From NCBI GenBank assembly GCA_024699645.1, contig JAILPE010000115.1:1-38773 (forward strand): a DNA stretch of 38,773 nt. Reading direction: 5' to 3'. A program made the position numbers and the translations under genes. Origin of the DNA: Lachnospiraceae bacterium. Lineage in GTDB: Bacteria; Bacillota; Clostridia; Lachnospirales; Lachnospiraceae. Under the pieces are notes generated by a model. The model did no database searches and was not told the origin of the DNA. It was given only the letters and a program-made list of their open reading frames with translations. Of the stretch, positions 7,128-38,731 are shown one piece after another. How positions within the stretch are numbered: position 1 is the first letter of the stretch; the number at the start of each line of letters is the position of its first letter.

Positions 7128-10100
7128 ATGAAGAACAAACTTGTCATGATAGTGCTCAGCATCATTTTGGTTTTAGCGGCCGGGGCAATGACGTATGCCA
7201 TTTACAGTACGCAGACCGGAAAGGAAGTCTTCGCTGAAGACGGCTACATCATCGTATATGATGATAAGGATGCCGAACAGCCGGCTAAAACTTATCATTT
7301 TAGCGAGGGGACGGCTTTCAAACGCTCTTATGAGGGGAGTATTCAATTCACTGACACTGAAGGGAATACTGTAGTTGCCGACTCTAATTCCTTTGTTCAC
7401 TATGACAGCGGCGCATCTGCTTCACTGTCCAAGAGTGTTCTTGTAAACCTCGACGAGGTTGATTCTTCTGCCCAGAATTATTATGGACTTAATTCGGGTA
7501 CTTCTGTTAATCGTAGTGGCTCCTCTTATACAATAGACGCTTCGGGAAATGAATCGGTGGATCTTTCCGATTACCTCTGGAAGGTCGGTGACAATCATTA
7601 TATGATGGTTTCCGATTATCTTACAGTTTCTTTTACTGACGGATCTTCTTATGATTTCGAAGATTATGTTGAACTTCTTTACCAGGATGGCGGAATGGTA
7701 TGTATTATGAACGGAGACACTGTGCTTCGTGATGCTTCCAAGAATACATATGTAACGATCGATTCGGGTGTTTCTATTAACCTTAATACTCAGATGATCG
7801 TTAAAGACGGTACACCCAAGATGTCTCTCGGTCAGATCACGACCGATTCGGAACAGGTTGTTGACATACTTCCTGCCGACGTAGACGCGACAAGATATAT
7901 TATGCCTGTTTTTGATTTTGAAATTCACGACGGAAAAAAAGGTGAGACAGGCGCAGACGGAATAAACGGAACAAACGGTGCCGACGGAACAGTCGGAGCT
8001 GACGGAATGAGCGGTGAAAACGGTCTTTCGGGTCTTATCGGATACGATGGCGATAACGGCGAAGCAGGCGAGGCCGGCACAAGCGGACACAGCGGAACCA
8101 ACGGTATTGAAGGTGCTATCGGAACCGACGGAGCTCAGGGAGCACCGGGTGCAGCGGGAACGCAGGGCGGCCAGGGCGCGGCAGGCGGCGCGGGAGCAGC
8201 CGGAGGCGGTGGAGCAGCCGGTAATAACGGTTACGACGGACTTATGGGTAACAACGGAACAGACGGTGTAAACGGACAGAATGTTATTTTGGATGATCCT
8301 TTGGATGTGCTCAAGGATGTTCCCGTTATCAGATGGGTTAATCCTCTTACAGCTACATACTCCGAAATCAAAGGAACATTTGGTTTTAAAATGAGCATCG
8401 AGGAGAAAACACCGACTCCTATCAAAGATGTTACGGTCAGACTTATAAATATTGAAACCGGAAAACTTGTACATACACAGGAGATAGCAAGCGAAATGTC
8501 AACCGGTAGTACTTCGGATGCGGCCGACTTAACCGGATTTGACAATCTTGCTCCCGCTACCGCGTACAGGTTTTTGATCAGCGGAAAATACGATTATAAA
8601 GGAAAAACGGTAGAAACATCATTCGAGGACAGAGTTCTTGTAACGGATGATTTCCCTTTGCATGTAAATGTTTATGGCGTTAAATCACAAGAAATTGATA
8701 TGGAACTTGTAAACCGCGATGCGGGTGCTGATGTTAATACTTCAAGTGTAACACATACCGCGTCGGTAAGCTGGGTTCTTACGGATGCAAACGGTTCAAA
8801 TAAAAAGAGTGGATCTCTTACACTTTCACAGAACCTTGGTGCCAACGATAATCCTACTGTCATAAACAGTGACGGAACCACGTCGGATCATGTGATCATC
8901 AACACGATTGACACTACCCAGCTTTCATCGGATACGCAGTATTATTTCTCGATTACGGAGCTGGACGGTAACACAACACAGATACCTTCAAGATACGTAA
9001 GGATACCTGTTAAAACGTTAAAGAAAACTCCTTCGATATCGGATGTTGAAGTTGTAGTCAATGTGATGAATCAAAGCTTCGATTTCTCTGTTGGCAGAGT
9101 TAACGATATAGATCATGCAATAACCGGATACAGATATGAGGTTTACGATACAAGCGGTAAGCTTGTACGTGTGGTTCGCGCGTCAGACAATCAGTTGGTT
9201 CACTGCTATATTGACGGCGTTGATCCTATGACGGGCCTCGGACTTGATCCGAATGAGGCATACAGGGTAAGAGCTATCGCGGAGGCTTTTGATAACAAGA
9301 AAAATATCGAAGTAACCTGCGATTTCCCGGATGCGTTTACAATGGACGGCGTAACACAGTATACATGGCTTACGCTTGACAACAAAGAAACATCACTTTT
9401 ACCCAATGCGCTGGGCTCATCGGCCGGCGGATCTATCGAAAATGCGCAGTTTACCATTCACTTGCCGGGCAACATAGCTCTTAAACGGGACAGTAATATA
9501 ATCATTTCCTATCATTCCGATGCGATTCAGATGGGAAGTAAGGTCATATCGACCCAGGGTTTGAGTTTCGGCACCGGAGACAAGGGAGAAAAGACCTTGT
9601 CAATAAGAGACGTATTCAGTAACCTGAAGAGTAAGACAACGTACAGATTTGATGCAAGAGGATTAGTAGATATAAACGGCGACGGATATTATCAGGACAG
9701 ACTTTTGGGTTCGGTTATCGTTACTACTCCTTACTATAAAGACGGCAAGGTGAAGATTGTCGGCGAGAAGAATAATACAAAACCTATTTTCTTTGACTTG
9801 ACATTGGAACCCGATACAAACCAGATATCCACAGGCATTAATACATCTCAGTATGCGGTGAGTCAGGCCGGCAGCATCACAACGACCGAGGACGGAACCA
9901 ACATCGGTGGTGTTCATGTTCAGCTTTACACTCCGAGCCTCATCCAGGGAAATGATCCGGTTCTTGTTTGTGAAGGCAACATAGAGATGGCATATGATCC
10001 AACCTCCGGTACATCAAAACAGAAAAGCGGAAATAAGATAACGCTTGATGATTTCCCCGGAAATCCTTCTATCGGATCCTTTAACGGAAAGTATATCGTT

Positions 10101-13100
10101 AAAGTTACAGAAGCATACGATTCAACATCACACAGAAACCCTATTCGTGTAGCTGATAATAGTTTTGAACAGGAAATAGGTAAGGCGTATCCCGATCCGG
10201 CAAGTCTGGGTCTTAATGTTGTACCCATTACAATAAATAATTATTCCGAAAAGGTTGGCGATACTCTTCCGAGCGAATACAGTAGCTATAATCCGGAAAC
10301 TGTACTTGGATTCTTTGTTGAGCCCACAGGGATAAAGAACCTGGATTATTTTAAACGACTTGATTTCTACGTGTATGATTCTGAGTATTACAAAGCAACA
10401 ATGAAACCGATAGAGGATAAGCTCAGAAGCAGCAACCCCAAGCTCGGCGCGGGAGAGAACTACAGCAAGGTATCTTCTGATGCTGAAACAGCCGGTGGGT
10501 CATATTTTTACCCGAGCAGCGATCAAAACTATATGGTCAAATTGAGTATTGACCTCACGAAGGATACCCCGAACGGTAAAGCCAGAATGGATGAAGCACC
10601 CACAGGTGTATTCCTTTTCGAGGATTTTAGTGGAGATAATGATACCTCGAAGGGTAAGCTTGTAGATCGTAACAACACCGGAAAAAAGGCGGGATATAAT
10701 ATCGAGGCCTTTATACCCGACGGAAACGGCGGAAGTGCTTCATTGTATGGATTTGCACGTGGTAGAGATTATGAATTTACATTCCGCTTGCAAACGGATC
10801 ATGATACGATGGGTGATAATAATAAAATGTACCCTGAAGTACTCGGGGATGATAAAGCTTGCGTTTTGAAGTGCCCTGTAACAATGCTTGCTCCTTATGA
10901 GCAACCCTCATATTACTTCTATCCTGCAAGCAGTGATGCTAATTCGTTTAGCTATGGTTACTATATCAAATCGGTTGATGCTTCACTTTGCCTTGGTAAT
11001 CCTATGAGTGTTGCTCCGGGTAGCGCGAACGTTACAAGTTATCTTAAATCTGATTCAACTCAAACAAACGGTACGAGTACGCTTCATTGTAATGAAGAGG
11101 CTCTTCTATGTGTTACAAATGCCAATAAAGGAAAATATACGATCAGCGTACCTGTTAATCTTTATATAAGTGCTTACGGAAGAAGTACGGATGTTAAACT
11201 GATAGAGAGATTTTTCTCCGGACTGAAACCCGAAACCACAGGAACATATGTTGTTAGTGCTGAAGAAAAGTATTCAAGAGTAAAATTTGATATAACTTGC
11301 GGAACAGACAATCAACCCAGAAATGTGGTTGCCATTGCAGCTAAATTTGTTAAGCTGGATGGTTCCGGAAACCCTACAACTCAAAAAACGGATTTAATAC
11401 TTGACATTTCTTCTGTTGCCGGAAGAACGATCACTGCATATGCGAAGTTTTCAGATCTTACATCCATTGCAAATGCGAATGATGTTATCAAAACAGAACT
11501 GACTGTTTATTATGATACAGGAAAAGAGGGATTCCTCGTAAAAGATGGTGATGGAAGCCCGCTGTATAAGAATGAGTTGAGTTCCGCGCAGTATGTCTGC
11601 CTTAAGGAACTTACAAGTGAGAATGAAGGACAATATATATTGCCTATCGGCGAAGATGTTTCTGACTTTTCGGTAAGAAACGATCATTCGACTGACAGAT
11701 TGGCTATCGGTTCCATATTCAGAATGACGATGAATTCGTCGGTGGCAGGCGCTCAAGCACAAAATATTGCCGGTACATTTGAGGATGCGAGCAATGACAA
11801 CGGCTACCTTGCTGTGACATTTAATGATTGGCAAAAAAACCTCGGATGGCATTATGAGACTACTAAGACTTCTCATGCACAAAAAGGCGGCCTTTATGAC
11901 TTTAAGATCACCAAGAATATTGAGCCGTATACCGTATCCCTTGTAAAAGGGACGAGTCAGGTTACAGCCAACTCCCCTTCTGAAGGACAATTTACTATGG
12001 GATCTGTAATACCTATGGTCAATCTTCACTCTGACAGAGGATTTACAATATCGGGCGGTATACATTCTGCAATCATCAACTTTAAGATTTCGGGTGTAAA
12101 AGGTGAATCTGAGATATACGAAAGGACTTGGACGCAGAATAATCCTACAGGAAGCATGGGTAACGTATATATCCTGCTGTACGACGTAGTTCAAACCGGA
12201 AACGGAACAAAATATACGCCCCTAATTGATCCTGATACCCATAAAATAAGGCGATTCCCCGTTGCATTGAATAAGCTTAACAGTGTGGAAGGAGCGCCCG
12301 GAGACGGAACATATACGATAGAGATCGGTGCTGATACAAACGGATTCCAGCTTAATGCCAATTCGCAGTATGTTATCCAGCTCGTATATTATAAGAATCA
12401 GGAAGACTTCAATTTAGATGTTGATTACGATGCCAATCCTATAGTAGACAAAAGAGTATATCTCCGTGATGAAAAATACCCTGAAGAATTGGCATCGGGA
12501 ATCTATTATCCGATCAACACGACAGAAACCATACAGGTGGCAGAAAACCTTTCAAGAGTTTTGTATTCTGCAAAGGCATATGATAACAAGAAACTGTTGG
12601 TAAGCGTTCAACTTGCAAATACGAGTGCATTGATCCAAGAGGGAGTTACCGCCTTCAGATACGCGCTTTATGATAATGAGGACCATTTGGTACTCACACA
12701 TGAAGAAATGGAGCAGTATATTAGAGAAAGAGAGAACAGTGGATCGGTTGTGCTCGATGTAAGTCCAAGAACTATTTTGATAGGACAGAAACCTGACGAA
12801 AATGATAAAATGAAAAATGTGTATTTCAATTTCTCAGATGGTTATGGAGGAGCACGTAAGTATAAGCTCAGATTGATACCGCTTACCATCGCAGATCTTG
12901 ATTCGTTTACATCATACATGGCAGCAGAAAATAAATCAACCGATACACATGCTTCGGGAGTAGCATATTACTATCATACAGATGAATATTCAGATGTTTA
13001 CAACAAATGGCTGACAACTCATTCGTTGGGATCGGACAGAGGAAATGATGTCGGACACTATTTGGATAACGCGACATTTGTTTCCTTCAACAGTATCCCC

Positions 13101-13865
13101 GAACTTAAGTCTGCGTTCCCTAACATCAGGGCATATGCGGGTGAGAAAAAAGTAACATTCCGTATCGGTATGGTTGATACGGACGGTGTTGTTCAATCGG
13201 ATAAGTATATGGTAAGAATCCTCGACAAAAACGGAGCTGACAGAACACCGGGAAGTATAGCAGACACAACATACAGTACAAGGTCAACCCAGAAGATTGA
13301 AGTGAATGTATCGGACCCTGAAGAAGCGGTAACACTCAGGGTATATTATGTGGAGGATCTGACAGGTACAAAGACCAAAGGAATTAATGGATTTAAGGAT
13401 ACATTCCTGGATCCCACAGAAGAGCCGACCGCTCTTGAGAATGGACAATATAAGATGACGTCGGTAACACAAAAATCCGCAAGGGCCGATGGATTCTCAT
13501 ACGGAGCTATAGAAGCGGTAAGAAAGGGATCGGAAAAGAGCGTATTTGTTGACTTCTTTAATCCTTCGAAGATCGATAAGGTTAATAAACTTGATGTAAA
13601 TATCAGGTTCCCCAGCGGTAAGACATTAAGCTACAGTTCGGATAATCCTTTTGCCAGCACTAATTATTATGATGCGACGACCAATCCGGAAGGTGTGACT
13701 GAATTGATTACCGGGGATGATACGATATACCGATACAGAGGAATCGCGGAAGGAATCTTTACGGAAACGGGAACGTATACCATAGCTCTGCGAATGAGCG
13801 TTGATAACGGTAGTGGCGGAGCTACGCAGGAAGACTATGTAATAAATAACTTTACGATTGCTTAG
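7128..13865 (+). CDS. giant type II membrane protein with collagen-like segment and Fn3-like domains (2245 aa)
   Basis: First gene of the F1-like operon. The ATG at 7128 follows AAGGGG by 7 bases. A basic tail (MKNK) and one membrane helix (about residues 5-27) give an N-in, C-out topology without a clear cleavage site. Residues about 35-260 form the membrane-proximal module shared with four other proteins here; an example block is YMMVSDYLTVSFTDGSSYDF. Residues 269-385 are 39 uninterrupted Gly-X-Y triplets. From about 390 to the end are many beta-sandwich domains of Fn3/Ig type, shown by recurring patterns such as LAPATAYRFLISGKY, LSSDTQYYFSI and LKSKTTYRF. The function is unknown. The repeated Fn3-like part suggests an extracellular fibre or adhesin. 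No LPxTG motif or second membrane helix is seen at the C terminus. Confidence 0.85.
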   Translation: MKNKLVMIVLSIILVLAAGAMTYAIYSTQTGKEVFAEDGYIIVYDDKDAEQPAKTYHFSEGTAFKRSYEGSIQFTDTEGNTVVADSNSFVHYDSGASASLSKSVLVNLDEVDSSAQNYYGLNSGTSVNRSGSSYTIDASGNESVDLSDYLWKVGDNHYMMVSDYLTVSFTDGSSYDFEDYVELLYQDGGMVCIMNGDTVLRDASKNTYVTIDSGVSINLNTQMIVKDGTPKMSLGQITTDSEQVVDILPADVDATRYIMPVFDFEIHDGKKGETGADGINGTNGADGTVGADGMSGENGLSGLIGYDGDNGEAGEAGTSGHSGTNGIEGAIGTDGAQGAPGAAGTQGGQGAAGGAGAAGGGGAAGNNGYDGLMGNNGTDGVNGQNVILDDPLDVLKDVPVIRWVNPLTATYSEIKGTFGFKMSIEEKTPTPIKDVTVRLINIETGKLVHTQEIASEMSTGSTSDAADLTGFDNLAPATAYRFLISGKYDYKGKTVETSFEDRVLVTDDFPLHVNVYGVKSQEIDMELVNRDAGADVNTSSVTHTASVSWVLTDANGSNKKSGSLTLSQNLGANDNPTVINSDGTTSDHVIINTIDTTQLSSDTQYYFSITELDGNTTQIPSRYVRIPVKTLKKTPSISDVEVVVNVMNQSFDFSVGRVNDIDHAITGYRYEVYDTSGKLVRVVRASDNQLVHCYIDGVDPMTGLGLDPNEAYRVRAIAEAFDNKKNIEVTCDFPDAFTMDGVTQYTWLTLDNKETSLLPNALGSSAGGSIENAQFTIHLPGNIALKRDSNIIISYHSDAIQMGSKVISTQGLSFGTGDKGEKTLSIRDVFSNLKSKTTYRFDARGLVDINGDGYYQDRLLGSVIVTTPYYKDGKVKIVGEKNNTKPIFFDLTLEPDTNQISTGINTSQYAVSQAGSITTTEDGTNIGGVHVQLYTPSLIQGNDPVLVCEGNIEMAYDPTSGTSKQKSGNKITLDDFPGNPSIGSFNGKYIVKVTEAYDSTSHRNPIRVADNSFEQEIGKAYPDPASLGLNVVPITINNYSEKVGDTLPSEYSSYNPETVLGFFVEPTGIKNLDYFKRLDFYVYDSEYYKATMKPIEDKLRSSNPKLGAGENYSKVSSDAETAGGSYFYPSSDQNYMVKLSIDLTKDTPNGKARMDEAPTGVFLFEDFSGDNDTSKGKLVDRNNTGKKAGYNIEAFIPDGNGGSASLYGFARGRDYEFTFRLQTDHDTMGDNNKMYPEVLGDDKACVLKCPVTMLAPYEQPSYYFYPASSDANSFSYGYYIKSVDASLCLGNPMSVAPGSANVTSYLKSDSTQTNGTSTLHCNEEALLCVTNANKGKYTISVPVNLYISAYGRSTDVKLIERFFSGLKPETTGTYVVSAEEKYSRVKFDITCGTDNQPRNVVAIAAKFVKLDGSGNPTTQKTDLILDISSVAGRTITAYAKFSDLTSIANANDVIKTELTVYYDTGKEGFLVKDGDGSPLYKNELSSAQYVCLKELTSENEGQYILPIGEDVSDFSVRNDHSTDRLAIGSIFRMTMNSSVAGAQAQNIAGTFEDASNDNGYLAVTFNDWQKNLGWHYETTKTSHAQKGGLYDFKITKNIEPYTVSLVKGTSQVTANSPSEGQFTMGSVIPMVNLHSDRGFTISGGIHSAIINFKISGVKGESEIYERTWTQNNPTGSMGNVYILLYDVVQTGNGTKYTPLIDPDTHKIRRFPVALNKLNSVEGAPGDGTYTIEIGADTNGFQLNANSQYVIQLVYYKNQEDFNLDVDYDANPIVDKRVYLRDEKYPEELASGIYYPINTTETIQVAENLSRVLYSAKAYDNKKLLVSVQLANTSALIQEGVTAFRYALYDNEDHLVLTHEEMEQYIRERENSGSVVLDVSPRTILIGQKPDENDKMKNVYFNFSDGYGGARKYKLRLIPLTIADLDSFTSYMAAENKSTDTHASGVAYYYHTDEYSDVYNKWLTTHSLGSDRGNDVGHYLDNATFVSFNSIPELKSAFPNIRAYAGEKKVTFRIGMVDTDGVVQSDKYMVRILDKNGADRTPGSIADTTYSTRSTQKIEVNVSDPEEAVTLRVYYVEDLTGTKTKGINGFKDTFLDPTEEPTALENGQYKMTSVTQKSARADGFSYGAIEAVRKGSEKSVFVDFFNPSKIDKVNKLDVNIRFPSGKTLSYSSDNPFASTNYYDATTNPEGVTELITGDDTIYRYRGIAEGIFTETGTYTIALRMSVDNGSGGATQEDYVINNFTIA
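7932..8282 (+). repeat. 39 consecutive Gly-X-Y triplets (collagen-like)
   Basis: Residues 269-385 of the 2245-residue protein follow Gly-X-Y with no break. The X/Y positions are rich in Ala, Asp, Asn and Thr, with a single Pro in the whole run. Bacterial collagens are often Pro-poor, but this low content leaves a polyglycine-II-like bundle as an alternative to a triple helix. Extended length would be roughly 33 nm at collagen rise. Confidence 0.9.
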
Positions 13866-13886
13866 TGGGGAAAGGAAGCAGGTATT

Positions 13887-15704: not shown

Positions 15705-15741
15705 TCTTAAAAATATTAAAATAAAGAATAATAATAGATAG

Positions 15742-15999
<258 letters not shown>

Positions 16000-16880: not shown

Positions 16881-16955
16881 ACCGGGATTATATGTGAAAA
16901 TATTGGTATAAGATAATATAGTAAAAGATTTTTAGATTTGGGGGTTGAACTTTTT

Positions 16956-29400: not shown

Positions 29401-32400
29401 CTGAATGTATGCCGGCGCAGCCCGATATAGCGCTTCCCGCTATAACATCGATCGGTACATCGATTATTCCGCTGGCAGCTATGGTGACAGAAAACAACGA
29501 TACCGAAGCATATGCTACTGTTACGTTCTATAATCCGAGCACGCTTGTCATCAATAATGTGAGTCTTGATTATGCCAACGGACGTGTTATAGAACAGTGG
29601 GAAGACGGTAAGTTCTACTATGCAAGGATCCGTGTACAGAATCCTTCGAGATATCTCAGCAGTTACCGTATTACCGGAATACGTTACTCACTCCGCGGAG
29701 AAACGAAAACCTATGAGAGAGAGTTCACAGAGGAGGCACAGAGGATTCCGCTTAGGGTAGAATTCTTTAAGCCGGTAAGAACAGTGGGCGATTTTATTGA
29801 TATTTCAGCTGATCTTGAACAGAATTATATGCTCGGTAACGATATTGATTTTACAGGTTACTTTGCGGCAGATTTTGTTGTCGGTGCGAAAACAACGGAC
29901 GGAACTCTTGATTCAAAATATACCCAAGAGGACGATGATAGATGCTTTTCGGGTAAGTTTGACGGTAGGAACCATGCGATCCGGAATATAGATGTCGGAA
30001 ATGTGGGATTTGTTTTCAGTAAGGTTTCAGGATCTATTTCGAATCTTAAGGTTGAGAATATACACACAATGAATCAGGAGATATACGGAGCTACACTTTC
30101 AACGGCGAAGTATATGGGACTTGTCGGAATATTCAGGCAGGGAGCCAGTCTTGACAATGTTCATGTTGACGGGGCACGTTTTGAGAATATCACACAGTTC
30201 TGTGGTGTACTTCTTGCTCGAAACTTCTTTGAGAACAAGATCACCAATTGTTCCGTTCGAAATGTATATCTTTCTACAGGATTGCCTTCGGAAAATTCGA
30301 CTGCGGCATCCGTCGGATGTCTTGTAGGACATAACGACCTTGGTTTGATAATAAACAACTGTTATGTAGATAATTATGAGATCAATGCCAAACAGGCCGG
30401 TGATGTATACGGAATAGGCGGAGCGGTAGGATATACCATAAACGGAATCAAGCTTGAAAATGTTTATGCAGTCAGAGGTAAGATCAATACATATTATTCG
30501 AATGTTGGCGGACTTGTAGGTTCTGTTCAATCCATAAATGATGTTTCAACATCGAGTAAATCGAATTATTATACAAATGAGTATTTCATAAAGAATTACT
30601 ATACCGATTGCGAGATCTATACAATGGCCAATAATATCGGAGGTGTCATCGGATACACATCGAAGCTTTCGGGATGGGACTATAACTATGGTATTGCATT
30701 CGGAAGAATAGTTCCAAAGAGTAATTCGGTTGACCTTGCAACATTGGGTCCTATTGTCGGATACTATTCTGAAACACCGGTTGACGACAAATCGGGTCTC
30801 AGACTCGGAAAGAACCAGTATGTATATTCGGATTACGAAATCGGAGGAACACCTTTCGTACCGCACTCCGGAGATGAAACAGAAACATCAAGAAATGCAT
30901 ATTTCAAGACGTTGTCATACGGCGAGATCACCACGTCGGAGATTGTAAACGGTTCGCAGACATACGGCTGGGAGGATGCACTCTTAAGACCCAGACTTGC
31001 ATGGAAGGGTAATTATGAGATAGATGAAGAAGAGCTTCAGAAGGGAATACTGCCGAAGCTTTACTACAGCTATAAGGATGAGAACGGGGCTAATATGCTT
31101 CTTCCGGGTCAGCAGGATTTCTCGCTGAAGCCGGCGGAAATAGAGATAGTTGATGTAACAATAAGTGATTATAACGGGGACAATGCAAACTCAATTCCCA
31201 GAATAACTGCGAAATTTGAGCATGATAAATCAATCTGTGTAAACGGATACGATGAGAACAGCAATAAGGTTCTTACGTTTGAGGGTACTGAATGGTTTGA
31301 ACCGGAAGCAAACGTTACGGTAACTTCCGGACAACCTGATGAAAGCGGAAGAATCGTTACCACTGTAACAGGACTGTTAAAATTAAAGGGCGACGATGAT
31401 GGTGTTGTGTTTGCTGTGGATAAGTATTTTATTAAATCCATTCGATACAAAAAGTCATCTGTTGCTACAATGTCGGCGATTGAGGCACAGACAGCCATTA
31501 CAGGAGGAGCAGATTCGTCGCTTCTGGTGGACAAAGAAAGAGAAATATATTACGAGATCAAAGGTATTAATTCCGGTTGGATATATATTTCGAGTGCAGA
31601 CGACTGGAACGCAAAGATGTCGGCAAACAAATACGGACTTAAGGGATTCAATATCTATTTGACGGGAGACCTTGAATTTAACGACACGATAAACAACGCT
31701 CAAATGAACGTAGTTGTTAACAATATAATCGGAAAAAAACTGGGCATGAGCGGTGACCTGGAAAATGCCGATGGTACTTATAATACGGCAAATACTGTCA
31801 CGATCAAGAATGTAAATATTTATAAGGACGATGAATCCGGAAATGCATCGAGTTTCATTGAACAGGTTCTCGGTAAAATGGAGGGTATCACATTTGAGAA
31901 TTGCTCCGTTTCACAGACCTATAAGAAGGCTGTAACCGAGAAAAAGGTATCCAATAAAACGGCTCTTATCGGAATCGTTAACGGTAAGATCAACTGCGTA
32001 ACGATGAAAAATATCGATATTACTGCATTCAGATCTGCCAATATCGCACCGATAGCGTTTGCATATGGTGTCAGCACGAACATCGAGATATCCGATATCA
32101 ATGTTGTTCAGCATAAAGCCGGCAGTTATATAAGCACATATTCAAACAGGGGTGGCTATGTTTCGTTCATGGGTAAGTTCGCCGGCATAGACGGACTTAA
32201 TGCAGAAAGGATCTACATTGACGCTTCCGGTGCATACATCGGAGGAATCGTCGGAAACCAGCTCGGTGGTACATACTTGTGGAATATCAACGCGAAAGAT
32301 ATTGTTGCCTTCTCAAGATCGAGTTCAAGCTTTGTCGGTGGTATCATAGGTAGTGCAAAAGACAGAGGTATCAGACAACGTGCCGGTATGCTGCATATCG

Positions 32401-35400
32401 AAGACGTCTTTGTAAGAGGAGGATCTTACATAGGCGGTATTGCAGGACGCCTTTTCTTAGGCGGATGGGACAGTGACGGATACAGAAGAGTTACGGGAAC
32501 AGGAATCAGTGCACTGAATGATTACTATGCTCTCGACCTCGGTACCTCATCATCGAATTCTGTAAGATCGTGGGTAAAGAGAGGCTTTGTCGCTTCGATG
32601 ACCAATGGTTCGTACGTTGGCGGTTCGATAGGTATCGGCGGAGCTTGGAAGACAACGGTCGAAGATACGTCAGTATTCGGAGGAACATATACGGGCGGTA
32701 TTGTCGGGCTTTACGCAGCAATCGATTGTGATGTGCGCAACAGTTTTATATCACACTGGTATGAAAAGGTCGGTGGAAATTCACTTAATTCCATTACAGC
32801 AGATAACTGGCCGTCAATGGCATACAGACCCGGAGATAGTTATAAGAATTTGTATAGTAATGATATATCCGGAAAAACTTACACGTCATACGTGACAAAT
32901 AAGACAAATGTTGACAATCATTTTACTGACCATGATGCAGAACAGGATGTCGGAGAAGGAAAGTATTTTGACTGGAAGGATAGTGTCATGACCAATGTCA
33001 ATGCCGAATCAGATAATGCGGTAAAGACTTTGCGAGGTGATTTCTGGAATCAGGCTACATGGGGAATGACTTCTTACAGTAAGAATTTTGGAGTGCAGGA
33101 AAGAACAAACGGAAGATCGGGAATAGTAATCAACAAACTTAAAGACCGACTTCCGAGTGACATGCAGGCAAGTGACAAAACTCCCATAGGTAACCTTTCT
33201 TCAGACCGTATGTTGACATACCTGACTTACGCATCTGTATATAATGCATTGAACTCAACGTGTAATGATTATATCGGAGGAATTGCGGGTCGAGGAACCT
33301 CTATAAGAGGAGCTGCTGTTCTTGACAGCATGGTATACTCGCCTAAATCGACCTTTGTCGGTGGTATTGCAGGCGGAGCGGCTTATTATGACGGAAACTA
33401 CACCAGCATGGGCGGTTACTATTCGTTGATGGTAGGGAATACTCATGTTGTCGGTGGTAAAAATGTCGGAGGCGTTTTCGGAGAAACTTACAGGTATAAT
33501 ACCGTGCGTGTGTTTGTAGACGAAAAGACCATTGTAGAAGGAAGAACATACACGGCATCCGGAAGAGACGGAACAAATGTCGGAGGTATCGCGGGATATG
33601 TACGTATGGGATCGTCTTCGGCATCTGAGCATCCGCAGTTTGATTACATCATAAGCGGAGCCACTGTTATTGGTAATAATAAGGTTGCCGGAATGATCGG
33701 ATATATGAACGTAGATTTCTATACTGATGAATCCGAATCAGGCTGGGCAATGCTCGGTAAAGTTATCGTCAACGGAACGGATATCAACAAGGGTGACCTT
33801 ATTATAAACAAGGATTCCGATATTAATTATATTAACAAGTCGGTTATACTTGGTACGTCAACCATTGAGGCCATATCAAATCCTGTTGATACAACAACAA
33901 ATACCATTGTTGCAAATGCTACTGCATCGACTAAAAAGACTGCCTCGATGTACTGGACTCCTTTAACTCCAAACAGACAGACCAGATTGCAAGTCATAGA
34001 CGCTGCAGATCTGAAGAATAAGGCAACTTATACCGGCAAGCTGGGAATGGCTGATTCGAGTGGAATCACGAGCGGTAATTATAAAGACAAGATGTTCATT
34101 TATGATAAACTTGGAGACGGATACTTGCCATACTTTTCTATGGGAGCAGTTATTCAGAGCAATTTTGATCAAGGTAAAGTAGGTATGTTCCCCGGAACAG
34201 ACAGTTCAGGTAAATCAAGAACCGTAATGCTTCCTATACCGGGAATCAGCACGGGATCGGGAAATGCAGGCAACGAAGTAAACGGTGCTTTGATATCCTT
34301 CCTGGGTATACCTGAAGCAAGGCTTTACACTTCCGGTGTAGATACGATCTCGGTTGACTTTAGCCATATCGATCCTACATATACATGGACGATCTCGATG
34401 GGCGACAAGGTGATCTCGGGAGTAGTTGATCAGAAGACGATCAGTTTCACGTATGACTTTGCTTCTGATGTGACGGTTGTTGTTTCGGGAGCCGACGGAG
34501 AAAAGGTAGTTGCATCTTCCGGTTCGGAACTTGCTAATTACGTTTCGGCAGCAGGCGGCTCATACAATATGATAACAGGCGAAGGAATTGTCAGAGGATC
34601 GGGAAGCAGTTCACTTCCTACCAGGTACGGAGATTATGTAAATCTCTACGACGGTAAAGCTCTTGAAAGAGACGGAAGTATAATCGATCTTGAGACGGGA
34701 GTTGTTACTTCGGCGGTTGACAGAGCAACATCGCTCGGTGACGAACGTACACCTGAACCTCTTGCAAAGGGTGAATTCGGTGGATTCAGAATTGAAACAT
34801 TTGCTTCATATTCTGTAACGACCAATGTCGCAACAGGCGAGAGCAGTATAAGAGATGAATTCCTCTTCTACACAGACGGTAAGACTCTGCAGAGTATCCG
34901 TACAAGTGAGAGAATCAAACCTGACAGCGTGATCCTTTACAGTGATCTCGAAAATACATATTTTGCAGCACTCGGTTCGGACAGAAAACTTAATGTTCTG
35001 CTTGATGGGGCATTTAAGGTTCCCGACGGCATAAGCGTTGAAAATATTTACGAGATGAGCAGCTCAAGAGAAATCAGAGCTCCGTACTGCATCATGAGAT
35101 ACTCTAACGGCGGTGTATGTGCGTTCAACTTCGTAACGGGAGAGATTCTGTACGAGAAGGATGCAAATCGCGGTTTGGCGGTCGGCGGAGGAAGCGCTTC
35201 GAGCGGAAGCAGCGCAATAAGCTTCTCACGTGCGATGGAACTTAATGATGCACTTAAGTCCGGCTCGATCAACCTTAAGGGAATCATTCTCGCTTCGCCG
35301 ATCGATAAGAATAACGGTGGAGCTGCGAGACCTGCAATAGACGGAGAATTCGTTGAAGGCGGTGCAAACAATCCGAACGGTAACTTCACATTTGTCAAAG

Positions 35401-36458
35401 AAGGTGAGGCTGTTAACGGAAATGCTACGGAAGTAGGAGAGATCGGTGCTGACGGACTTACTGTAATATCTGAAGAAAGTGAAAGGAACAAAGCCGAAAT
35501 TGCCGGAAACAGCAGCGGTAACGTCGGTGAGCCGGATGAAAAGAATGTTGGAGAACAGCCTGAGACAACAGAAGGCGGCGCAAGCTCTGACAGTTCTGAA
35601 TCAGGTGTGGCTATCGTGCCCGATCTGAGCGGTACGGCTACCGGAATCGAAGGCGCACTTCCTGTTGAAGGCGAAGTACCTTTAGGTAATTATGACGGAA
35701 ATACAATTAACGGAACAAATTCTCAGAATGGCAGTGTGGCCGTTGAGAATGGTGTGGTCATTGAGCCTATAGGCGGTGATCCGAATTCTCAGATCGGTTC
35801 GAACGTGGTCGAGAGTTCACTTGTAAGTGTCGATCCCAAGCTTCTTGCTTCAGTAGAATCCGAAGCATCCTCGCTTATTGAGGACGGAAGTATTTCAATC
35901 GAAACGATCACAGAAGTGCTCGGAACTACCGAAAGCGAAGCAAAAACAAAGCTTTACGGAGCTGCGGCGCAGATCGCTGACAGAGATGGTTTCTCGATCA
36001 GAGATGCTATCACGGAAGCGTACAAGGATATTGTCCTTAATCCGACGGAATATAAAGAGGAGCCGATAGCAGCACTCAAGCACACTGCAGAAACAGTGAA
36101 TGCTATAACGTTTAAGCGTGATCTTGAGATTGCTAAACAGACGCTCATGGGCGGTGATTCGATCGATCCTTCAACGCTCAACCTCGTAACCGTATTCAAT
36201 CCTGAAACGGGCGAGTATGAACTCTTTGATATGAATGAGCTTCTTGCAGGTGAAGAAGAGCAGTTGAAGTCGCTTGAAGAAAGACTTGCCGAAAGCGGTA
36301 GGTTTATCGATACTTCTCATGCATTTAGGTCGGGTGCGGAGAAATCAAAGGCATCACGTGATTACAACGGTTTCATCGCAGTTATAGCTGCGGTACTCCT
36401 TGCGGGAGGATTAACGTGTGCCCTGATCTATAAAAAGAGAAAGGAAGGAAGCAGATGA
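23451..36458 (+). CDS. giant double-anchored surface protein with Pro-rich stalk and beta-helix domains (4335 aa)
   Basis: The ATG at 23451 follows AGGAGG by about 9 bases. Order of parts: basic tail, membrane helix (about 6-28), shared module (about 35-235), Pro/Thr/acid-rich stalk (about 241-429), Fn3-like domains with a helical insertion (about 920-1045), then three regions of GLUG-like right-handed beta-helix repeats (about 1610-1990, 2105-2515, 2705-3415). An example pair is SNVGGLVGSV and TYTGGIVGLY. Then come beta strand-turn repeats (about 3610-3930), a Gly/Ser/Glu-rich linker, a helical segment and a C-terminal membrane helix (about 4305-4327) followed by KKRKEGSR. There is no LPxTG before this helix, so sortase linkage is not indicated. 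Both ends appear to be in the membrane, making a giant external loop. It may be the main surface element of the machine. Confidence 0.85.
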   Translation: MKKRGMGLFIAMGGIALVLIVASIFLIVSGSYTARLVLVNDGFFVGETVRDSLYANDENAVMTSIPAITASQSDILYEKSGKYYLGDNYTPVSLNYPYVINNASAVMFTSNVDKLLTGTFEYVDSYENLYMSGGVTFNSDMERAYREDFILVDTGNGVYMNANKLTVGGALTTAGEVPANSFIRFLEDRVDYYYYEDDKLVYASISPVSRTATIETGSYSYSYIEFLEKLGLYSERKVKEKISPTPTPVPVNEESEDLPAPTREVIFVSDTSSGSGDDTDDELDKAEKSTSSDEGRKTSEQTTDPLPAGDDVRDDDGERESVTPDPAERPTRAPRPTSVPSIPEPAGDPLPAEDVDVVRVTPTPRPTATPLPTPTLIPPLEQTVSGGDPYVPEAPAPGGAAAAASPVKPPELIPKQETGNPQRPVYFTEWKKPVVHLGDITTGTYTIFLDNFHIENAQFIYKRYGVEIYVKKGTDENGELVYTKSVTGSGPLRLAQPFEPEEKYTLKVVLNYINAFGETVAEDIMQFGDVVVETKSRDFLDKLDLTFAKAKKAPNSFKINDLGIGIAVNKTNDKFIESVEYMGRFEITATNAADPNDVRILTLSSSELEKLRRGEKFNYESSRVFRSNSTYNYVIKIYDKTGALLKFDDGSGNGVESISGVFKTCTEAPNAVFRVLNNKIYDYTVAMRMTNSGNAGMKNIKYRITDINGNEVLTTVKYLTTVTGAGVTYTAPEGPLSEHLFTDAQVDGIFDSSAGASGINPNRMVEVATQFTDLSDQTVYKLQVIADYDIYDYDEADYEGGIVPESEKWHVGEVIGETRFTTASISSLGNLFLDNIIPETDENLNEGNLYMTLRLGDRTNDLLIDLLDDVTIGFYKNKKDENGVETGVYELDTDARISYILSDASETQYSDIKSVLSKTRPDELAEWEETANKAAQLAYDQVMNTAYADCYSEVRQNHKFIEIDEQGVEKEYTLDDYYSAAANAQTELNSGNYATEGDEYKILTAIVDKYSDALAEIESEAMTLLRTKADEAKTTAYEASMATHNIADPGQYYKNGEFSFGSSHAGYTEGTIDSLKELSPENTTGGVVPYKYKNELRIVVTGLSTNSTYNIKVKSKATVGTSGKESEVRTTLSRTSFKTYRKKARIKMDAYYAASDFISLFGVSIDDPDGAISSYPVTLTMMNRVGTTMGTRTFNGPQDTFDEIRFSGLTREEVYSIMFLAKEYNKGWTKASSEINKELFVNDNTETLMIVTHESIKADISLIGINEAYDLAPEVRVMVKRGTTSVTAGPITGKYSTEENGTPTTYLNKGSLGSGEYYIAGADGKDKLIYRTAVYTIDVDLGDESYNIIEPAIYPTRNRFTKYQLFEDEACTIPLSDASDPNARVEVTSDTSNGVARSRSYWTSNYIRLNKYLTGSVRVYLRATALNIGNAIGGASPKFNGVYMLTGVSFHKFGEKAYTANINAVLKDEYGQLGEGGVSTYYVRVYEKEGESVSSDSGYALVSERMHTWRELEKDEAREHTGDNCLLSMCEYDKYALDGKGEDLGQKTFVGGSKQIDTNFGVRVAYGKYYRLELWIKINNYNIRVGTSVFTSDRFIHSIEDENDLLDAYCHPSDSYIVTKDLKINIANIYNTKQFDGVLDFNGHTLVHTSNEYLIHTLGAYGEVKNIVYEKGVGDPNVYDNLKNVRGITYANYGRIDNVIINYKNRIETIWITDENGNRVRSARNASDFRESSYIQGMCSYANYPTGIIENFCVNVEEDIYLYGGNGLGLVTYINYGLVRNGYSCSTTGAKIHQLALQSDYEIIFENKTTAKTNYTTSYYTGGLVRQNIGGIIESTFGLVDMDLKADTTDGRYKKGAVLCGKNDGFVRNSFSAAKVLTLNESDATVSNPYYEAKQGRSPAVRNFIEGNNIYGYSKNVYHYGMGLDYGICLDYRGFDYDSVEIRKEILYDVNWYKSLFESDDITRPGQWDYDYVARNCYPHVRLPECMPAQPDIALPAITSIGTSIIPLAAMVTENNDTEAYATVTFYNPSTLVINNVSLDYANGRVIEQWEDGKFYYARIRVQNPSRYLSSYRITGIRYSLRGETKTYEREFTEEAQRIPLRVEFFKPVRTVGDFIDISADLEQNYMLGNDIDFTGYFAADFVVGAKTTDGTLDSKYTQEDDDRCFSGKFDGRNHAIRNIDVGNVGFVFSKVSGSISNLKVENIHTMNQEIYGATLSTAKYMGLVGIFRQGASLDNVHVDGARFENITQFCGVLLARNFFENKITNCSVRNVYLSTGLPSENSTAASVGCLVGHNDLGLIINNCYVDNYEINAKQAGDVYGIGGAVGYTINGIKLENVYAVRGKINTYYSNVGGLVGSVQSINDVSTSSKSNYYTNEYFIKNYYTDCEIYTMANNIGGVIGYTSKLSGWDYNYGIAFGRIVPKSNSVDLATLGPIVGYYSETPVDDKSGLRLGKNQYVYSDYEIGGTPFVPHSGDETETSRNAYFKTLSYGEITTSEIVNGSQTYGWEDALLRPRLAWKGNYEIDEEELQKGILPKLYYSYKDENGANMLLPGQQDFSLKPAEIEIVDVTISDYNGDNANSIPRITAKFEHDKSICVNGYDENSNKVLTFEGTEWFEPEANVTVTSGQPDESGRIVTTVTGLLKLKGDDDGVVFAVDKYFIKSIRYKKSSVATMSAIEAQTAITGGADSSLLVDKEREIYYEIKGINSGWIYISSADDWNAKMSANKYGLKGFNIYLTGDLEFNDTINNAQMNVVVNNIIGKKLGMSGDLENADGTYNTANTVTIKNVNIYKDDESGNASSFIEQVLGKMEGITFENCSVSQTYKKAVTEKKVSNKTALIGIVNGKINCVTMKNIDITAFRSANIAPIAFAYGVSTNIEISDINVVQHKAGSYISTYSNRGGYVSFMGKFAGIDGLNAERIYIDASGAYIGGIVGNQLGGTYLWNINAKDIVAFSRSSSSFVGGIIGSAKDRGIRQRAGMLHIEDVFVRGGSYIGGIAGRLFLGGWDSDGYRRVTGTGISALNDYYALDLGTSSSNSVRSWVKRGFVASMTNGSYVGGSIGIGGAWKTTVEDTSVFGGTYTGGIVGLYAAIDCDVRNSFISHWYEKVGGNSLNSITADNWPSMAYRPGDSYKNLYSNDISGKTYTSYVTNKTNVDNHFTDHDAEQDVGEGKYFDWKDSVMTNVNAESDNAVKTLRGDFWNQATWGMTSYSKNFGVQERTNGRSGIVINKLKDRLPSDMQASDKTPIGNLSSDRMLTYLTYASVYNALNSTCNDYIGGIAGRGTSIRGAAVLDSMVYSPKSTFVGGIAGGAAYYDGNYTSMGGYYSLMVGNTHVVGGKNVGGVFGETYRYNTVRVFVDEKTIVEGRTYTASGRDGTNVGGIAGYVRMGSSSASEHPQFDYIISGATVIGNNKVAGMIGYMNVDFYTDESESGWAMLGKVIVNGTDINKGDLIINKDSDINYINKSVILGTSTIEAISNPVDTTTNTIVANATASTKKTASMYWTPLTPNRQTRLQVIDAADLKNKATYTGKLGMADSSGITSGNYKDKMFIYDKLGDGYLPYFSMGAVIQSNFDQGKVGMFPGTDSSGKSRTVMLPIPGISTGSGNAGNEVNGALISFLGIPEARLYTSGVDTISVDFSHIDPTYTWTISMGDKVISGVVDQKTISFTYDFASDVTVVVSGADGEKVVASSGSELANYVSAAGGSYNMITGEGIVRGSGSSSLPTRYGDYVNLYDGKALERDGSIIDLETGVVTSAVDRATSLGDERTPEPLAKGEFGGFRIETFASYSVTTNVATGESSIRDEFLFYTDGKTLQSIRTSERIKPDSVILYSDLENTYFAALGSDRKLNVLLDGAFKVPDGISVENIYEMSSSREIRAPYCIMRYSNGGVCAFNFVTGEILYEKDANRGLAVGGGSASSGSSAISFSRAMELNDALKSGSINLKGIILASPIDKNNGGAARPAIDGEFVEGGANNPNGNFTFVKEGEAVNGNATEVGEIGADGLTVISEESERNKAEIAGNSSGNVGEPDEKNVGEQPETTEGGASSDSSESGVAIVPDLSGTATGIEGALPVEGEVPLGNYDGNTINGTNSQNGSVAVENGVVIEPIGGDPNSQIGSNVVESSLVSVDPKLLASVESEASSLIEDGSISIETITEVLGTTESEAKTKLYGAAAQIADRDGFSIRDAITEAYKDIVLNPTEYKEEPIAALKHTAETVNAITFKRDLEIAKQTLMGGDSIDPSTLNLVTVFNPETGEYELFDMNELLAGEEEQLKSLEERLAESGRFIDTSHAFRSGAEKSKASRDYNGFIAVIAAVLLAGGLTCALIYKKRKEGSR
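24171..24740 (+). other. Pro/Thr/acid-rich stalk segment of the 4335-aa protein
   Basis: About 190 residues starting ISPTPTPVPV, through acidic Asp/Ser stretches, to TPTPRPTATPLPTPTLIPP and a final Ala/Pro part. Such sequences stay extended and are typical of wall-spanning linkers. It takes the same place after the membrane-proximal module as the Gly-X-Y and Gly-Gly-X runs of the other two proteins. Confidence 0.85.
28270..33700 (+). repeat. GLUG-like beta-helix repeat regions
   Basis: Short units with the pattern 'I.N..v.n..v.......vGGlvG...' recur many times, for example VGCLVGHNDLGLIINNCYV, IGGAVGYTINGIKLENVYA and VGGIAGYVRMG. They fit the GLUG motif family that builds right-handed beta-helices in surface proteins. 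Three blocks are separated by sandwich-like inserts at about 29430-29760 and 31080-31560. Confidence 0.75.
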
Positions 36459-38731
36459 AAAGGAGATACCTGATCCTTGCGGTGGTGACCATACTGATGT
36501 TAGCGGGCGTAGCCGTAGGGTATTCCTTCTTAAGTAGCAACGAAAATCTGATGCGCATTGAAGAGGCGGGAAAAGAGTTTGAGATTCTTGACCAAACTCT
36601 CGCATCCAAAATGCAGGTATATACTCAGAGTGTCATGAAGAACCTTGAGGGTGCCGCAAGTGCTATCAGTACGATCGGTGGGGAAAAAGCTACGAAGGAA
36701 GAGCTTATGGCGGTTCTTACTCAGTTAAAGGAAAGGGGCGGATACGACGAACTTTCCTACGTTGGGACTAAGAATGACGCTATGAGCAGCAATGGTTCCA
36801 CTTATGATGTTTCATTTGATCCTTATTACGGAAGAGCACTGAACGGAGACAGTACGATCACTAAATCCGGGTACCTTTCTGAGGAAGACGATTCCTATAT
36901 GGCAACTGTTCCGGTTAAGGGAGCTGCCGGTATAACAGGCGCATTAAGGGCAAAGCTTTCTGCTACGGCAGTTGAAGGTAATCTGACGATCAGCAATTAT
37001 CGCGGACGCGAGGTTATTCTTCTTCTTAATCGTGACGGTGAGGTCATACATGTTTCGAGCGGAACGGATCTGTCAAATACTAAAACGATCTACGATGTGT
37101 TTGGAAAGAATTCCGACAGCCGTGCGCAGTTCGAATCAGTCGTAAGACAGGGTAGAGGTCTTTTCCTCAGAGTTGATGAGAACCTTACAGTGGAAGTTTT
37201 CGGAGACGGACCGTATTATATTGCATATCAGGGCGTCTCGGGAACAGGCGAGTGGGGCGTCATGATGATCATGAACGAGGAGAAACTCTTCGAGTTTTAC
37301 AAGAATGACGCTGTTTCATCAAATGCGATAACTGCGGTCATTTTGTTCCTGATCGCGCTTGTCGGTGCGATAGGACTCGGAATTTACGGATTCTTTGAGA
37401 CCCGATCGAGAAACCGTATGTACAACCTCGCATACTATGATGAATTTGCGGGAACCATGAACATTAACTATTTCCGAAAGGGAGTCAACCAGACACTTAC
37501 GAAAAGTAATTCAACTCAGTACGCATTTGTATTGATGGGTATTGCAAAATACGAATACTTGCGAGACTTCTTCGGTGAGAACGAGATCTCGCGAATACTT
37601 AGAGAAATCTCTCAGATACTTAAGTCGAATGTAAAGCGCGACGAGTACTTCTGCCATAACTTCGGTGAAGAGTACGATCTTCTCCTCTCATACCATAACA
37701 GGGATGAGCTTGTGGCAAGACTTAAGTTCCTTGAGGGATCGCTCGAGATGGTGAACAAGAGCGAAGGCGGTTCCGATAAATATGCACTTACCTTCAGATA
37801 CGGTGTTGCTTTCGGCGGTGCTGACGCACATGACTTCGATACACTGATGTCCCGTGCCAACATGGCTCACATGGAGGCAAAAGGCAAGGGTGCCGGTGCG
37901 GTTGAATTCTACACCGAAAAGATGCAAAGCCGTATCGTTGATGAGAAGGAAATCGAGCGCGATATGTATGACGCTCTCGAAAACAAGGAATTCCTTGTTT
38001 ACCTTCAGCCTAAATTCAACCTTTCAACAGGTCTTCAGGCCGGTGCCGAGGCACTTATCCGTTGGATGCACCCTGTTAAAGGACTTATGTATCCCGGACG
38101 TTTCATTGAAACTTTCGAGAAGAACGGTTTCGTAACAAGACTCGACATGTACATGCTCGAAGAGCTTTGCCGACGTATTAAGGTTTGGACAGGTAAGGGC
38201 TACAGACCCATGCCGTTGTCACTTAATATTTCCCAGCAGAACCTTTTGAATCCCGAGTTCGTAAACGATGCTATCGCACTTACCGAGAAGTATGGTGTTT
38301 CTCCCAACCTCATCATCTTCGAGATGTCGGAGAAAGTGGTTGTTGACAACATGGGCATCCTTAACAAGATCATGGAGCAGATGAAGGATCACGGCTTCGT
38401 GGTATCAATGGATAACTTCGGTACAGGCAGCACGTCCATGAACACTCTTTACAACGTGCCTGTCGATGAGCTTAAGATCGACCGTAAGTTCCTCCTCAAC
38501 GCCGAAAAGACCGACCGTGGACAGAACGTTATCCAGTCCGTTATCGAGATGGCCAAGCGTCTTAAGATCGACGTTGTATCCGAGGGTGTTGAGAACAAGC
38601 AGCAGGCAATCCTCCTCCGCGAGATGGGTTGTGACATGATCCAGGGCTTCGCCTTCTCCGAACCCCTCCCCGAGCACGAGTACGAAGAGTACGCTTACGG
38701 CCCCCGTGCAAGAGACAATTCGGTTTGGTAA
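36455..38731 (+). CDS. membrane c-di-GMP signalling protein: sensor, degenerate GGDEF, EAL
   Basis: The 758-residue protein overlaps the giant gene by ATGA, so translation is probably coupled. Membrane helices at about 6-27 and 288-312 enclose a possibly Cache-like extracellular sensor. The GGDEF domain (about 325-485) has GEEYD at 404-408 in place of the motif and should not make c-di-GMP. The EAL domain (about 500-745) has E532-A-L-I-R-W, LNISQQNL, FEMSE, ELKIDRKF, VVSEGVEN and the QGFAFSEPLP end. The usual DDFGTG reads D653-N654-F-G-T-G: the second metal-site Asp is Asn. EAL enzymes hydrolyse c-di-GMP to pGpG. This one may be active, weakened or only a binder. As last gene of the operon it probably links the surface machine to c-di-GMP level, with the sensor facing the giant ectodomains. 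Confidence 0.9.
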   Translation: MKRRYLILAVVTILMLAGVAVGYSFLSSNENLMRIEEAGKEFEILDQTLASKMQVYTQSVMKNLEGAASAISTIGGEKATKEELMAVLTQLKERGGYDELSYVGTKNDAMSSNGSTYDVSFDPYYGRALNGDSTITKSGYLSEEDDSYMATVPVKGAAGITGALRAKLSATAVEGNLTISNYRGREVILLLNRDGEVIHVSSGTDLSNTKTIYDVFGKNSDSRAQFESVVRQGRGLFLRVDENLTVEVFGDGPYYIAYQGVSGTGEWGVMMIMNEEKLFEFYKNDAVSSNAITAVILFLIALVGAIGLGIYGFFETRSRNRMYNLAYYDEFAGTMNINYFRKGVNQTLTKSNSTQYAFVLMGIAKYEYLRDFFGENEISRILREISQILKSNVKRDEYFCHNFGEEYDLLLSYHNRDELVARLKFLEGSLEMVNKSEGGSDKYALTFRYGVAFGGADAHDFDTLMSRANMAHMEAKGKGAGAVEFYTEKMQSRIVDEKEIERDMYDALENKEFLVYLQPKFNLSTGLQAGAEALIRWMHPVKGLMYPGRFIETFEKNGFVTRLDMYMLEELCRRIKVWTGKGYRPMPLSLNISQQNLLNPEFVNDAIALTEKYGVSPNLIIFEMSEKVVVDNMGILNKIMEQMKDHGFVVSMDNFGTGSTSMNTLYNVPVDELKIDRKFLLNAEKTDRGQNVIQSVIEMAKRLKIDVVSEGVENKQQAILLREMGCDMIQGFAFSEPLPEHEYEEYAYGPRARDNSVW

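Follow-up and report, generated by a model that had tools for sequence, protein, structure and literature searches.

What is an F1-type ATPase doing in the middle of a row of genes for giant surface proteins? The question is raised by a 38,773-nucleotide stretch of DNA from a Lachnospiraceae bacterium (contig JAILPE010000115.1 of assembly GCA_024699645.1; the whole stretch is called the window here, and is contig C27 of a 2.13-Mb genome in 123 contigs), in which 12 head-to-tail genes on the + strand fill positions 7128-38731 in one tight row, with gaps of no more than 110 bases and three overlaps. They encode, in order, Giant1, a Gly-rich protein, subunit c, a b-delta fusion, alpha, gamma, beta, a protein at the position of epsilon, a 403-residue multi-transmembrane (multi-TM) ectoprotein, a second ectoprotein, Giant2 and a GGDEF-EAL protein, at successive distances of 21, 49, 110, 57, 19, 25, 29, -14, -4, 44 and -4 bases. 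All the genes named in an initial annotation of this DNA were found at their coordinates on one strand, and that list was accurate save for omitting the gene for the 403-residue protein (20768-21979). We conclude that the best explanation for the operon is an ATP-driven, non-ion-pumping F1-type rotary motor that acts on surface proteins and may pass torque to external fibres, a reading to which we give a probability of roughly 0.55. That the genes encode a non-pumping engine-plus-ectoprotein complex of some kind is, judged from sequence, very probable; that it does mechanical work on external proteins is favoured by a modest margin over its not doing so.

The set is not a chance neighbourhood, because it recurs in order, as far as the contigs reach, in five other genomes of the same genus, and because canonical order of the genes present is kept in 75 of 80 loci sampled more widely. 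Beyond the genus, four further genomes of the family also preserve this order within the limits of their contigs; in two of these the second ectoprotein and the EAL gene are missing and the 403-residue protein is divided between two genes. A gamma-profile scan of a public species-genome collection matched 133 stretches, the best 80 of which were read as loci and form the denominator of the locus counts given here; some are near copies or come from the same genome (L078-L080, L100/L101, L126/L127, L133/L135, L118/L147), so that the counts are of loci and not of independent events. By record title the carriers are Lachnospiraceae, other Clostridia, Coriobacteriales, Bacilli/Erysipelotrichaceae and Bifidobacterium colobi, and the nearest relatives of the window locus are metagenome-assembled genomes (MAGs) titled Lachnospiraceae or Clostridia, including goat omasum and horse faeces samples. 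Prevalence was 6 of 397 genomes sampled in the family, 3 of 391 in the class (its own included) and, in the order to which the Bacilli carrier L131 belongs, 22 of 288; the species-genome search used two short peptide patterns and is therefore an undercount.

Across the 80 loci, profiles recognised gamma in 80, beta in 79, alpha in 77, the epsilon-position gene in 76, b-delta in 75, c and the ectoprotein corresponding to the ectodomain of the 403-residue protein (the ecto profile) in 71 each, the Gly-rich protein in 66, a separate multi-TM gene in 64 (with 11 more fused to the ectodomain), Giant2 in 60 and Giant1 in 53. Nine loci are without c, six of them because they begin too near gamma and three because they are permuted. 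Of the 61 loci with over 900 bases of sequence before the Gly-rich gene (three permuted loci being left out), Giant1 was recognised in 50, and a gene fills most of the upstream space in 58; of the 65 with over 900 bases after the ectoprotein, 59 have a recognised Giant2. The five exceptions to the order are L092, L113, L116, L118 and L119. In L113, L118 and L119 Giant1 lies downstream, followed in L113 and L118 by the Gly-rich gene, and a c subunit of this type is located elsewhere in each genome, so the genes seem to stay partners even when their order changes. A further sample of 20 stretches from 19 genomes (18 of the 22 in the order of L131, and one Clostridia genome) was also read. Genes for c, b-delta, alpha, beta, gamma, the epsilon-position protein and the multi-TM protein are present in all 20 (L180 has beta in two pieces); their order varies, and gamma often comes last.

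We found that the ion site of c has been lost throughout. The window's c (15754-15999, 81 residues; Pfam E-value 1.5e-8) keeps the glycine motif and the RNP loop, and T60 replaces the ion-binding Glu, which the ordinary c of the same genome carries. None of 67 unique sequences (0 of 82 rows including repeats) has an acid at this site, the residue being T in 31, A in 25, V in five, S in four and M in two; one row has an Asp adjacent to the position. Likewise, c in the 20 further stretches has M, T, A or S there and never an acid. Of the 67 unique sequences, 66 keep the GRNPE loop, by which ordinary c docks on the foot of gamma, and all 67 keep the helix-1 glycine motif, so the ring seems to be retained and the ion site alone lost.

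In 18 carrier genomes the profile of subunit a, PF00119, gave 14 matches, none of them at the operon; 12 genomes have a match elsewhere, and the other six (G357, G370, G444, G447, G448 and G450) have none and show the operon's gamma as their sole gamma, absences that call for caution as the assemblies are incomplete (in the window's genome the ordinary gamma is likewise missing though the ordinary operon is present, cut by a contig end). In that ordinary operon a (PF00119), c and alpha were recognised by profile and b and delta by eye, which answers the check, proposed in the initial annotation, of whether the host has another, ordinary F-ATPase. For the same annotation a complete ordinary subunit a with ion transport would have told against its reading, and across the 18 genomes none was found at the operon. 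It can be seen from these sequences that the system does not look like an ion pump.

The motifs of the catalytic core suggest a working ATPase, and it appears to have a stator. Beta (19109-20473, 454 residues; PF00006, 1.7e-63) has intact nucleotide-site motifs, and Walker A and the catalytic Glu are found in 77 of 77 beta sequences and Walker B in 76 of 77. Alpha (16938-18278; 446 residues from the TTG at 16938, or 440 from the ATG at 16956; 1.6e-68) keeps its nucleotide site and Arg finger and is without the ordinary C-terminal tail; the Arg-finger motif SRxGG is present in 73 of 74 alphas and the Walker A pattern in 70 of 74, being missed in L082, L104, L140 and L148. Gamma (18298-19083, 261 residues; PF00231, 4.6e-24) is divergent. 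The putative stator is the b-delta fusion (16110-16880, 256 residues), in which one TM segment continues into a 76-residue helix, followed by a low-confidence linker, a six-helix delta/OSCP-like domain and a C-terminal beta domain. Its C-terminal half matches ordinary delta (hhalign 84.4%, E 7e-6), and in an AlphaFold2 model (predicted local distance difference test, pLDDT, 88.7) the TM helix runs to residue 76. With this model Foldseek returned ATP synthase chains as top PDB matches (E 1e-4, probability 1.00, TM-scores about 0.3-0.45), some in entries named 'b-delta'; we take these chains to be delta or OSCP. AlphaFold and Foldseek thus support a predicted b-delta stator. The gene between beta and the 403-residue protein (20503-20781, 92 residues) is named epsilon by position and size; an N-domain-only epsilon, which would suggest a hydrolysis-only enzyme, was considered and dropped, as neither hhalign nor a PDB profile search gave it support. 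As a separate observation, alpha genes in loci of the Bacilli type are extended, mostly C-terminally, by about 100-650 residues (L110, L112, L131, L136, L137, L141, L145 and L146), giving open frames of 562-1090 residues, and that of L181 reaches 1416.

Could the operon be a decaying spare ATP synthase that has landed by chance among surface genes? Decay could by itself account for the missing subunit a and c carboxylate. However, the idea is contradicted by conservation: the catalytic motifs are kept in all 77 betas, alpha and beta are 95-99.8% identical to those of the window within the genus (G014 aside), the order holds in 75 of the 80 loci, and six of the 18 genomes have this gamma as their sole F-type gamma found, with no subunit a found. 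We consider decay extremely improbable.

The 403-residue protein consists of a helical TM domain fused to a single-TM, beta-rich ectodomain, and in most relatives the two halves are separate genes, the multi-TM gene mostly with 3-5 predicted TM segments. Although its AlphaFold2 model is confident (pLDDT 91.1), a fold search with the whole protein as query gave zero PDB or viral matches at E<=0.001, and a 46-row profile of the multi-TM family matched three ordinary a sequences at only 0.2%. The proposal that it is an ordinary subunit a was rejected on that profile value, on the lack of a fold match and on the loss in G014 of the Arg of a subunit a-like helix described below. These results bear on whether the multi-TM protein might stand in for subunit a in a pump for another substrate, be it a lipid, a solute or an ion bound at a new site. 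Both a c ring and a stator are retained, as they would be in a pump, and the multi-TM gene is beside F1 in 64 loci, fused to the ectodomain in 11 more and present in 19 of the 19 further genomes. Against this, the ion site holds T, A, V, S or M in the 67 unique c sequences, the multi-TM profile does not resemble the three ordinary a sequences, and the basic residues of the multi-TM protein are not strictly conserved. A pump of this kind therefore seems very unlikely to us.

Next to the engine, the conserved multi-TM gene is joined by genes for between one and five membrane-anchored ectoproteins, among which there are usually two giants. Giant1 (7128-13865; 2245 residues from the ATG at 7128, or 2278 from an in-frame upstream ATG at 7029) has a TM anchor at its N terminus, a domain shared with the other ectoproteins, a collagen-like tract (Pfam 3.2e-12) and a long ectodomain. 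The Gly-rich protein (13887-15704, 605 residues) has an N-terminal TM anchor, the shared domain, a long GGx tract and a C-terminal domain. Giant2 (23451-36458, 4335 residues) has one TM segment near the N terminus and one at the C terminus, with the shared domain, a Pro/Thr-rich stretch and a very long repetitive ectodomain, and all five complete copies of it have a TM segment near each end. The second ectoprotein (21976-23406, about 475 residues, one TM segment) is an extra copy found in the window's group; its C-terminal half matches the ectodomain of the 403-residue protein, with hhalign aligning residues 266-470 to the ecto profile at 99.8%. Pfam gave zero matches above cut-offs for the ectoproteins other than Giant1. 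When seven profile pairs drawn from ecto, the Gly-rich protein, the N-regions of the two giants and the 475-residue protein were compared by hhalign, six matched at 84.5-99.8%; the Gly-rich protein gave 89.7% with ecto, 94.1% with the Giant1 N-region and 89.7% with the Giant2 N-region, while ordinary delta and ordinary a, used as controls for the ecto profile, gave 0.1% and 0.5%. A related domain thus appears to be common to the five ectoproteins, and this predicted kinship suggests that they may form a joint assembly at the membrane.

Engine and surface parts evolve at different rates. In four of the five same-genus genomes the giants are 39-63% identical to those of the window, and alpha and beta 95-99.8%; in the fifth, G014, identity is 81.5% for alpha, 84.8% for beta and 26-30% for the giants, with 40% in a 98-residue end piece. 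G014 aside, this pattern would be expected if the engine were fixed and the surface parts evolved fast. One genome, G011, has three copies of the operon (L038, L039 and L040, on contigs C196, C140 and C65), whose giants diverge from those of the window far more than the F1 genes do; the differing giants of the three copies are a possible case of surface variation.

How far do the surface proteins belong to the engine? No ectoprotein was recognised in two of the 80 loci, L122, which is too short, and L132, where the upstream gene resembles by eye the end of a Gly-rich protein, and no locus is certainly without every ectoprotein, L180 being ambiguous. Several of the further stretches that show no giant finish in large open frames at the edge of the stretch or contig, and may have giants there. 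Giants are common, not universal. A minimal set seems, from these gene contents, to comprise the engine, the stator, an ion-dead c, the multi-TM protein and at least one ectoprotein, with L116 as the exception. Downstream of some Bacilli operons there are small single-TM proteins (L167 8024-11142, L169 4637-5287, L172 12587-13378) which by eye resemble what we take to be TasA/camelysin fibre proteins.

An engine encoded with giants might alternatively be an ATP-driven machine for export, folding or assembly, in which F1 would change the conformation of the multi-TM protein and so export the giants or build them into an envelope assembly, with no lasting motion thereafter. The giants are indeed encoded with the motor, the 403-residue membrane protein has no known fold match, and a translocation role is discussed for mycoplasma F1-like ATPases in PMC3369863. 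However, the N-terminal hydrophobic anchors of the ectoproteins would suit the general Sec route, some operons keep the engine without giants, and a c ring and stator arm would be unnecessary for export. We think such a machine unlikely.

The operon was then placed among known F1 systems. In an alpha tree of 65 sequences from these operons, 11 ordinary rows and six rows of a long-alpha type (alphas without the Walker A pattern being left out), the 65 form one group with support of 100/100 and in 100% of bootstraps. In a beta tree the operon sequences (37 rows, thinned by half), ordinary F1 (21 rows, five of them from the long-alpha type) and mycoplasma type 3 (20 rows) each form one group at 100/99 or better, the first and last at 100/100 each; the tree is unrooted, leaves out type 2 and carries a long-branch warning, so that sister pairs are not readable from it. 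Searched against the PDB, the beta profile ranked ordinary F1 first and the G1 beta of Mycoplasma mobile lowest of 58 matches, and the gamma profile ranked ordinary F1 first, with no chain named G1 among its 47 matches. Kinship with the mycoplasma motors was rejected on these rankings and, for type 3, on the separate clades of the beta tree. The window alpha, however, scores 357.7 with the M. mobile alpha model, about as with TIGR00962 (359.3) and less than with NF009884 (403.6).

Eleven window proteins (all but EAL) fall below every NCBIfam cut-off listed for them. For the F1Fo equivalogs the scores against cut-offs are 445.4 against 462.85 for beta, 403.6 against 554 for alpha, 58.3 against 194.45 for gamma and 26.2 against 43.95 for c; for the type 3 families MSC_0618/0619, 397.5 against 570 and 283.8 against 520; for the type 2 families MMOB1660/1670, 357.7 against 600 and 377 against 850; and for the N-ATPase families TIGR03305/TIGR03324, 406.5 against 752 (beta) and 329.1 against 750.5 (alpha). 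With the mycoplasma models the scores are thus far below the cut-offs.

The operon shares features with each of these systems. Like F1Fo ATP synthase it has alpha, beta, gamma, c, a b-like arm and delta in the order c-b-delta-alpha-gamma-beta-(epsilon position), but it has no a, its c is without the ion-site acid, its b-like arm is fused to delta, its alpha is shortened and ectoproteins are added. Like the N-ATPase, described in PMC3369863 as an additional F-type operon that accompanies an ordinary one, it can share its genome with an ordinary operon; unlike the N-ATPase it has no subunit a, has lost the c carboxylate and scores below the cut-offs. With mycoplasma type 3 (the F1-like X0 ATPase) and type 2 (the G1-ATPase of M. 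mobile gliding) it shares the reuse of F1 alpha, beta and gamma beside an ordinary F-ATPase, unfamiliar membrane and surface proteins, the absence of subunit a and a link to surface function, as described in PMC3369863, PMC12994834 and PMC11864180; the last of these portrays GliD of M. mobile G1 as a probable former b-delta fusion. As described in those papers, the mycoplasma systems have no c homologue and no TM-anchored b-delta arm, and have a 12-TM protein. By contrast with type 3, the present operon has c and b-delta, and its multi-TM proteins have at most six predicted TM segments; it also differs from the mycoplasma systems in sitting in walled bacteria with giant ectoproteins.

Freeing F1 from ions is thus an idea already known in mycoplasmas, whose systems are the nearest in principle. 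None of the systems found here has the ion-dead but retained c, the b-delta arm that is tethered to the membrane, the families of multi-TM proteins and ectodomains, or the giants, and the operon departs from each known family in a defining feature. Searches of the open-access PMC literature (with few subscription journals and no preprints) brought up the mycoplasma systems but no account of the present one. The reuse of F1 outside ion-coupled ATP synthesis in walled bacteria is strongly supported by the gene sequences. The separate reuse in a walled Firmicute that the initial annotation put forward is upheld by the missing acid in 67 of 67 c sequences, the lack of an operon subunit a, the ordinary F-ATPase elsewhere in the host genome, the co-occurring partner genes and a beta clade apart from type 3.

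The mycoplasma precedent suggests one more alternative, a capture-and-release or processing device like MIB-MIP, in which hydrolysis resets ectoproteins that have bound a host or food ligand and no fibre is moved on balance. A type 3 F1-like X0 ATPase (MSC_0618-0624) is needed for MIB-MIP, according to PMC12994834. Many carrier record titles name gut or rumen samples. Yet a scan of partner proteins showed neither a protease family nor an immunoglobulin-binding one, and the operon is distinct from type 3 in both sequence families and tree. We regard this device as rather improbable.

For the reading that we prefer, a rotary motor acting on surface proteins, the following mechanism may be proposed. 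Alpha and beta would be competent for ATP, and the one-TM-anchored b-delta arm could hold alpha3beta3 still while hydrolysis turns gamma and the c ring against it. The related domains of the ectoproteins would form one assembly above the ring, and the multi-TM protein would link this assembly to the rotor or the stator. In the least sure step, torque or strain would pass to long external fibres, the giants being fibres or adhesins. Likely uses would be to move, extend or re-grip surface adhesins on fibres, mucus or host surfaces. The most specific form of this proposal, a plasma-membrane, ATP-powered rotary motor whose ion-dead c ring turns or twists a stalk of several proteins that share a recurring ectodomain, thereby setting giant adhesive fibres beyond the wall in motion, is tentative, and we would give it rather less than an even chance.

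Several results weigh against the motor reading. The 'b-delta-like' label of the initial annotation is sustained for the delta half by the profile and fold searches and not for the b half, which is b-like solely in having one TM segment and a long helix and matches three ordinary b sequences at 0.1% by hhalign. Its 'epsilon' likewise fits in position and size and finds no homology support, the profile comparison with epsilon giving 0.1% (in the ordinary set used, one row, L054, is by eye a NUDIX-like protein) and the PDB profile search zero matches. One TM helix of the 403-residue protein resembles by eye the RLxGN of subunit a (RLxGxxxAG), its Arg being present in six of seven aligned rows including the window and missing in G014, and the protein may be a very remote subunit a remnant. 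The N-regions of Giant1 and Giant2, the remaining profile pair, match each other at only 51.5%. Nor do the giants always accompany the engine, and operons regularly without the ectodomain proteins would have told against the reading of the initial annotation: partner genes are linked to F1 genes across classes, but in the Bacilli loci L167, L168 and L169 the core comes after one single-TM protein of 246-259 residues with no giant. Six of the 65 loci with room for it have no neighbouring Giant2, and a giant was recognised in six of the 19 further genomes and in none of the other 13, several of which are at contig edges. G937 has Giant1 and the Gly-rich protein with no recognised ecto or Giant2, ordinary-looking genes following multi-TM with kilobases to spare, and L116 has no recognised multi-TM, ecto or Giant2, again with kilobases of DNA to spare. 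Finally, the ectodomains may serve binding or signalling instead of motion.

In the window's group a further protein may tune the machine to cyclic di-GMP (c-di-GMP). The last gene of the row (36455-38731, 758 residues) encodes a dCache-GGDEF-EAL protein by Pfam domains (EAL 3.4e-64), and the gene is present in three of the five same-genus genomes. Canonically the motifs are GGDEF and, for EAL, DDFGTG. Both look altered here, with FGEEY at the GGDEF place and DNFGTG, so that the protein is perhaps a sensor; DNFGTG is found in four of five EAL proteins including the window's, the fifth being unmatched by the pattern. Two loci (L043 9115-14775 and L046 5668-11494) have two more large proteins after the EAL gene (1058-1070 and 821-822 residues), judged alike on order and size, sequences aside.

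Rotary ATPases are usually taken to couple ATP to ions, and flagellar motors run on ion flow. If the motor reading is true, Gram-positive gut bacteria would act on their surroundings by a third major means in addition to flagella and pili, and a c ring could be a pure mechanical shaft. The operon makes testable a long-standing question, whether F1 with a c ring can act across a membrane simply as a mechanical motor, and gives a handle on the giant surface proteins of commensals, many carriers coming from gut and rumen. Two hosts have records not marked MAG, Lachnospiraceae bacterium G11 and Bifidobacterium colobi strain LC6.

Other features of the window and its hosts were also recorded. A promoter scan of positions 6600-24000 was at chance level (40 found, 37.4 expected) and was not used; nor were terminator-like sites in the same interval taken as evidence (19 found, 12.1 expected, standard deviation 3.7). 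A riboswitch was considered and dropped, there being one weak, irrelevant Rfam match upstream of the window operon and zero matches above gathering score in seven related loci, and anti-phage defence was set aside after PADLOC gave zero matches for six proteins. Upstream of the operon, at 412-6666, lie ordinary genes for a 2-phosphosulfolactate phosphatase, a ThiD-like kinase, a VWA protein, an ODP-flavodoxin protein and ThyX, of which the ODP and ThyX genes are also upstream of the operon in some relatives. The same family has a second unusual F-ATPase type, the long-alpha type of the trees, with an alpha of 590-672 residues bearing a long N-terminal addition and adjoining beta and other genes (L050 9572-11362, L051 7908-9680, L052 9477-11495 and L053-L055); its hosts can also hold an ordinary F-ATPase and, in G014, the operon described here.

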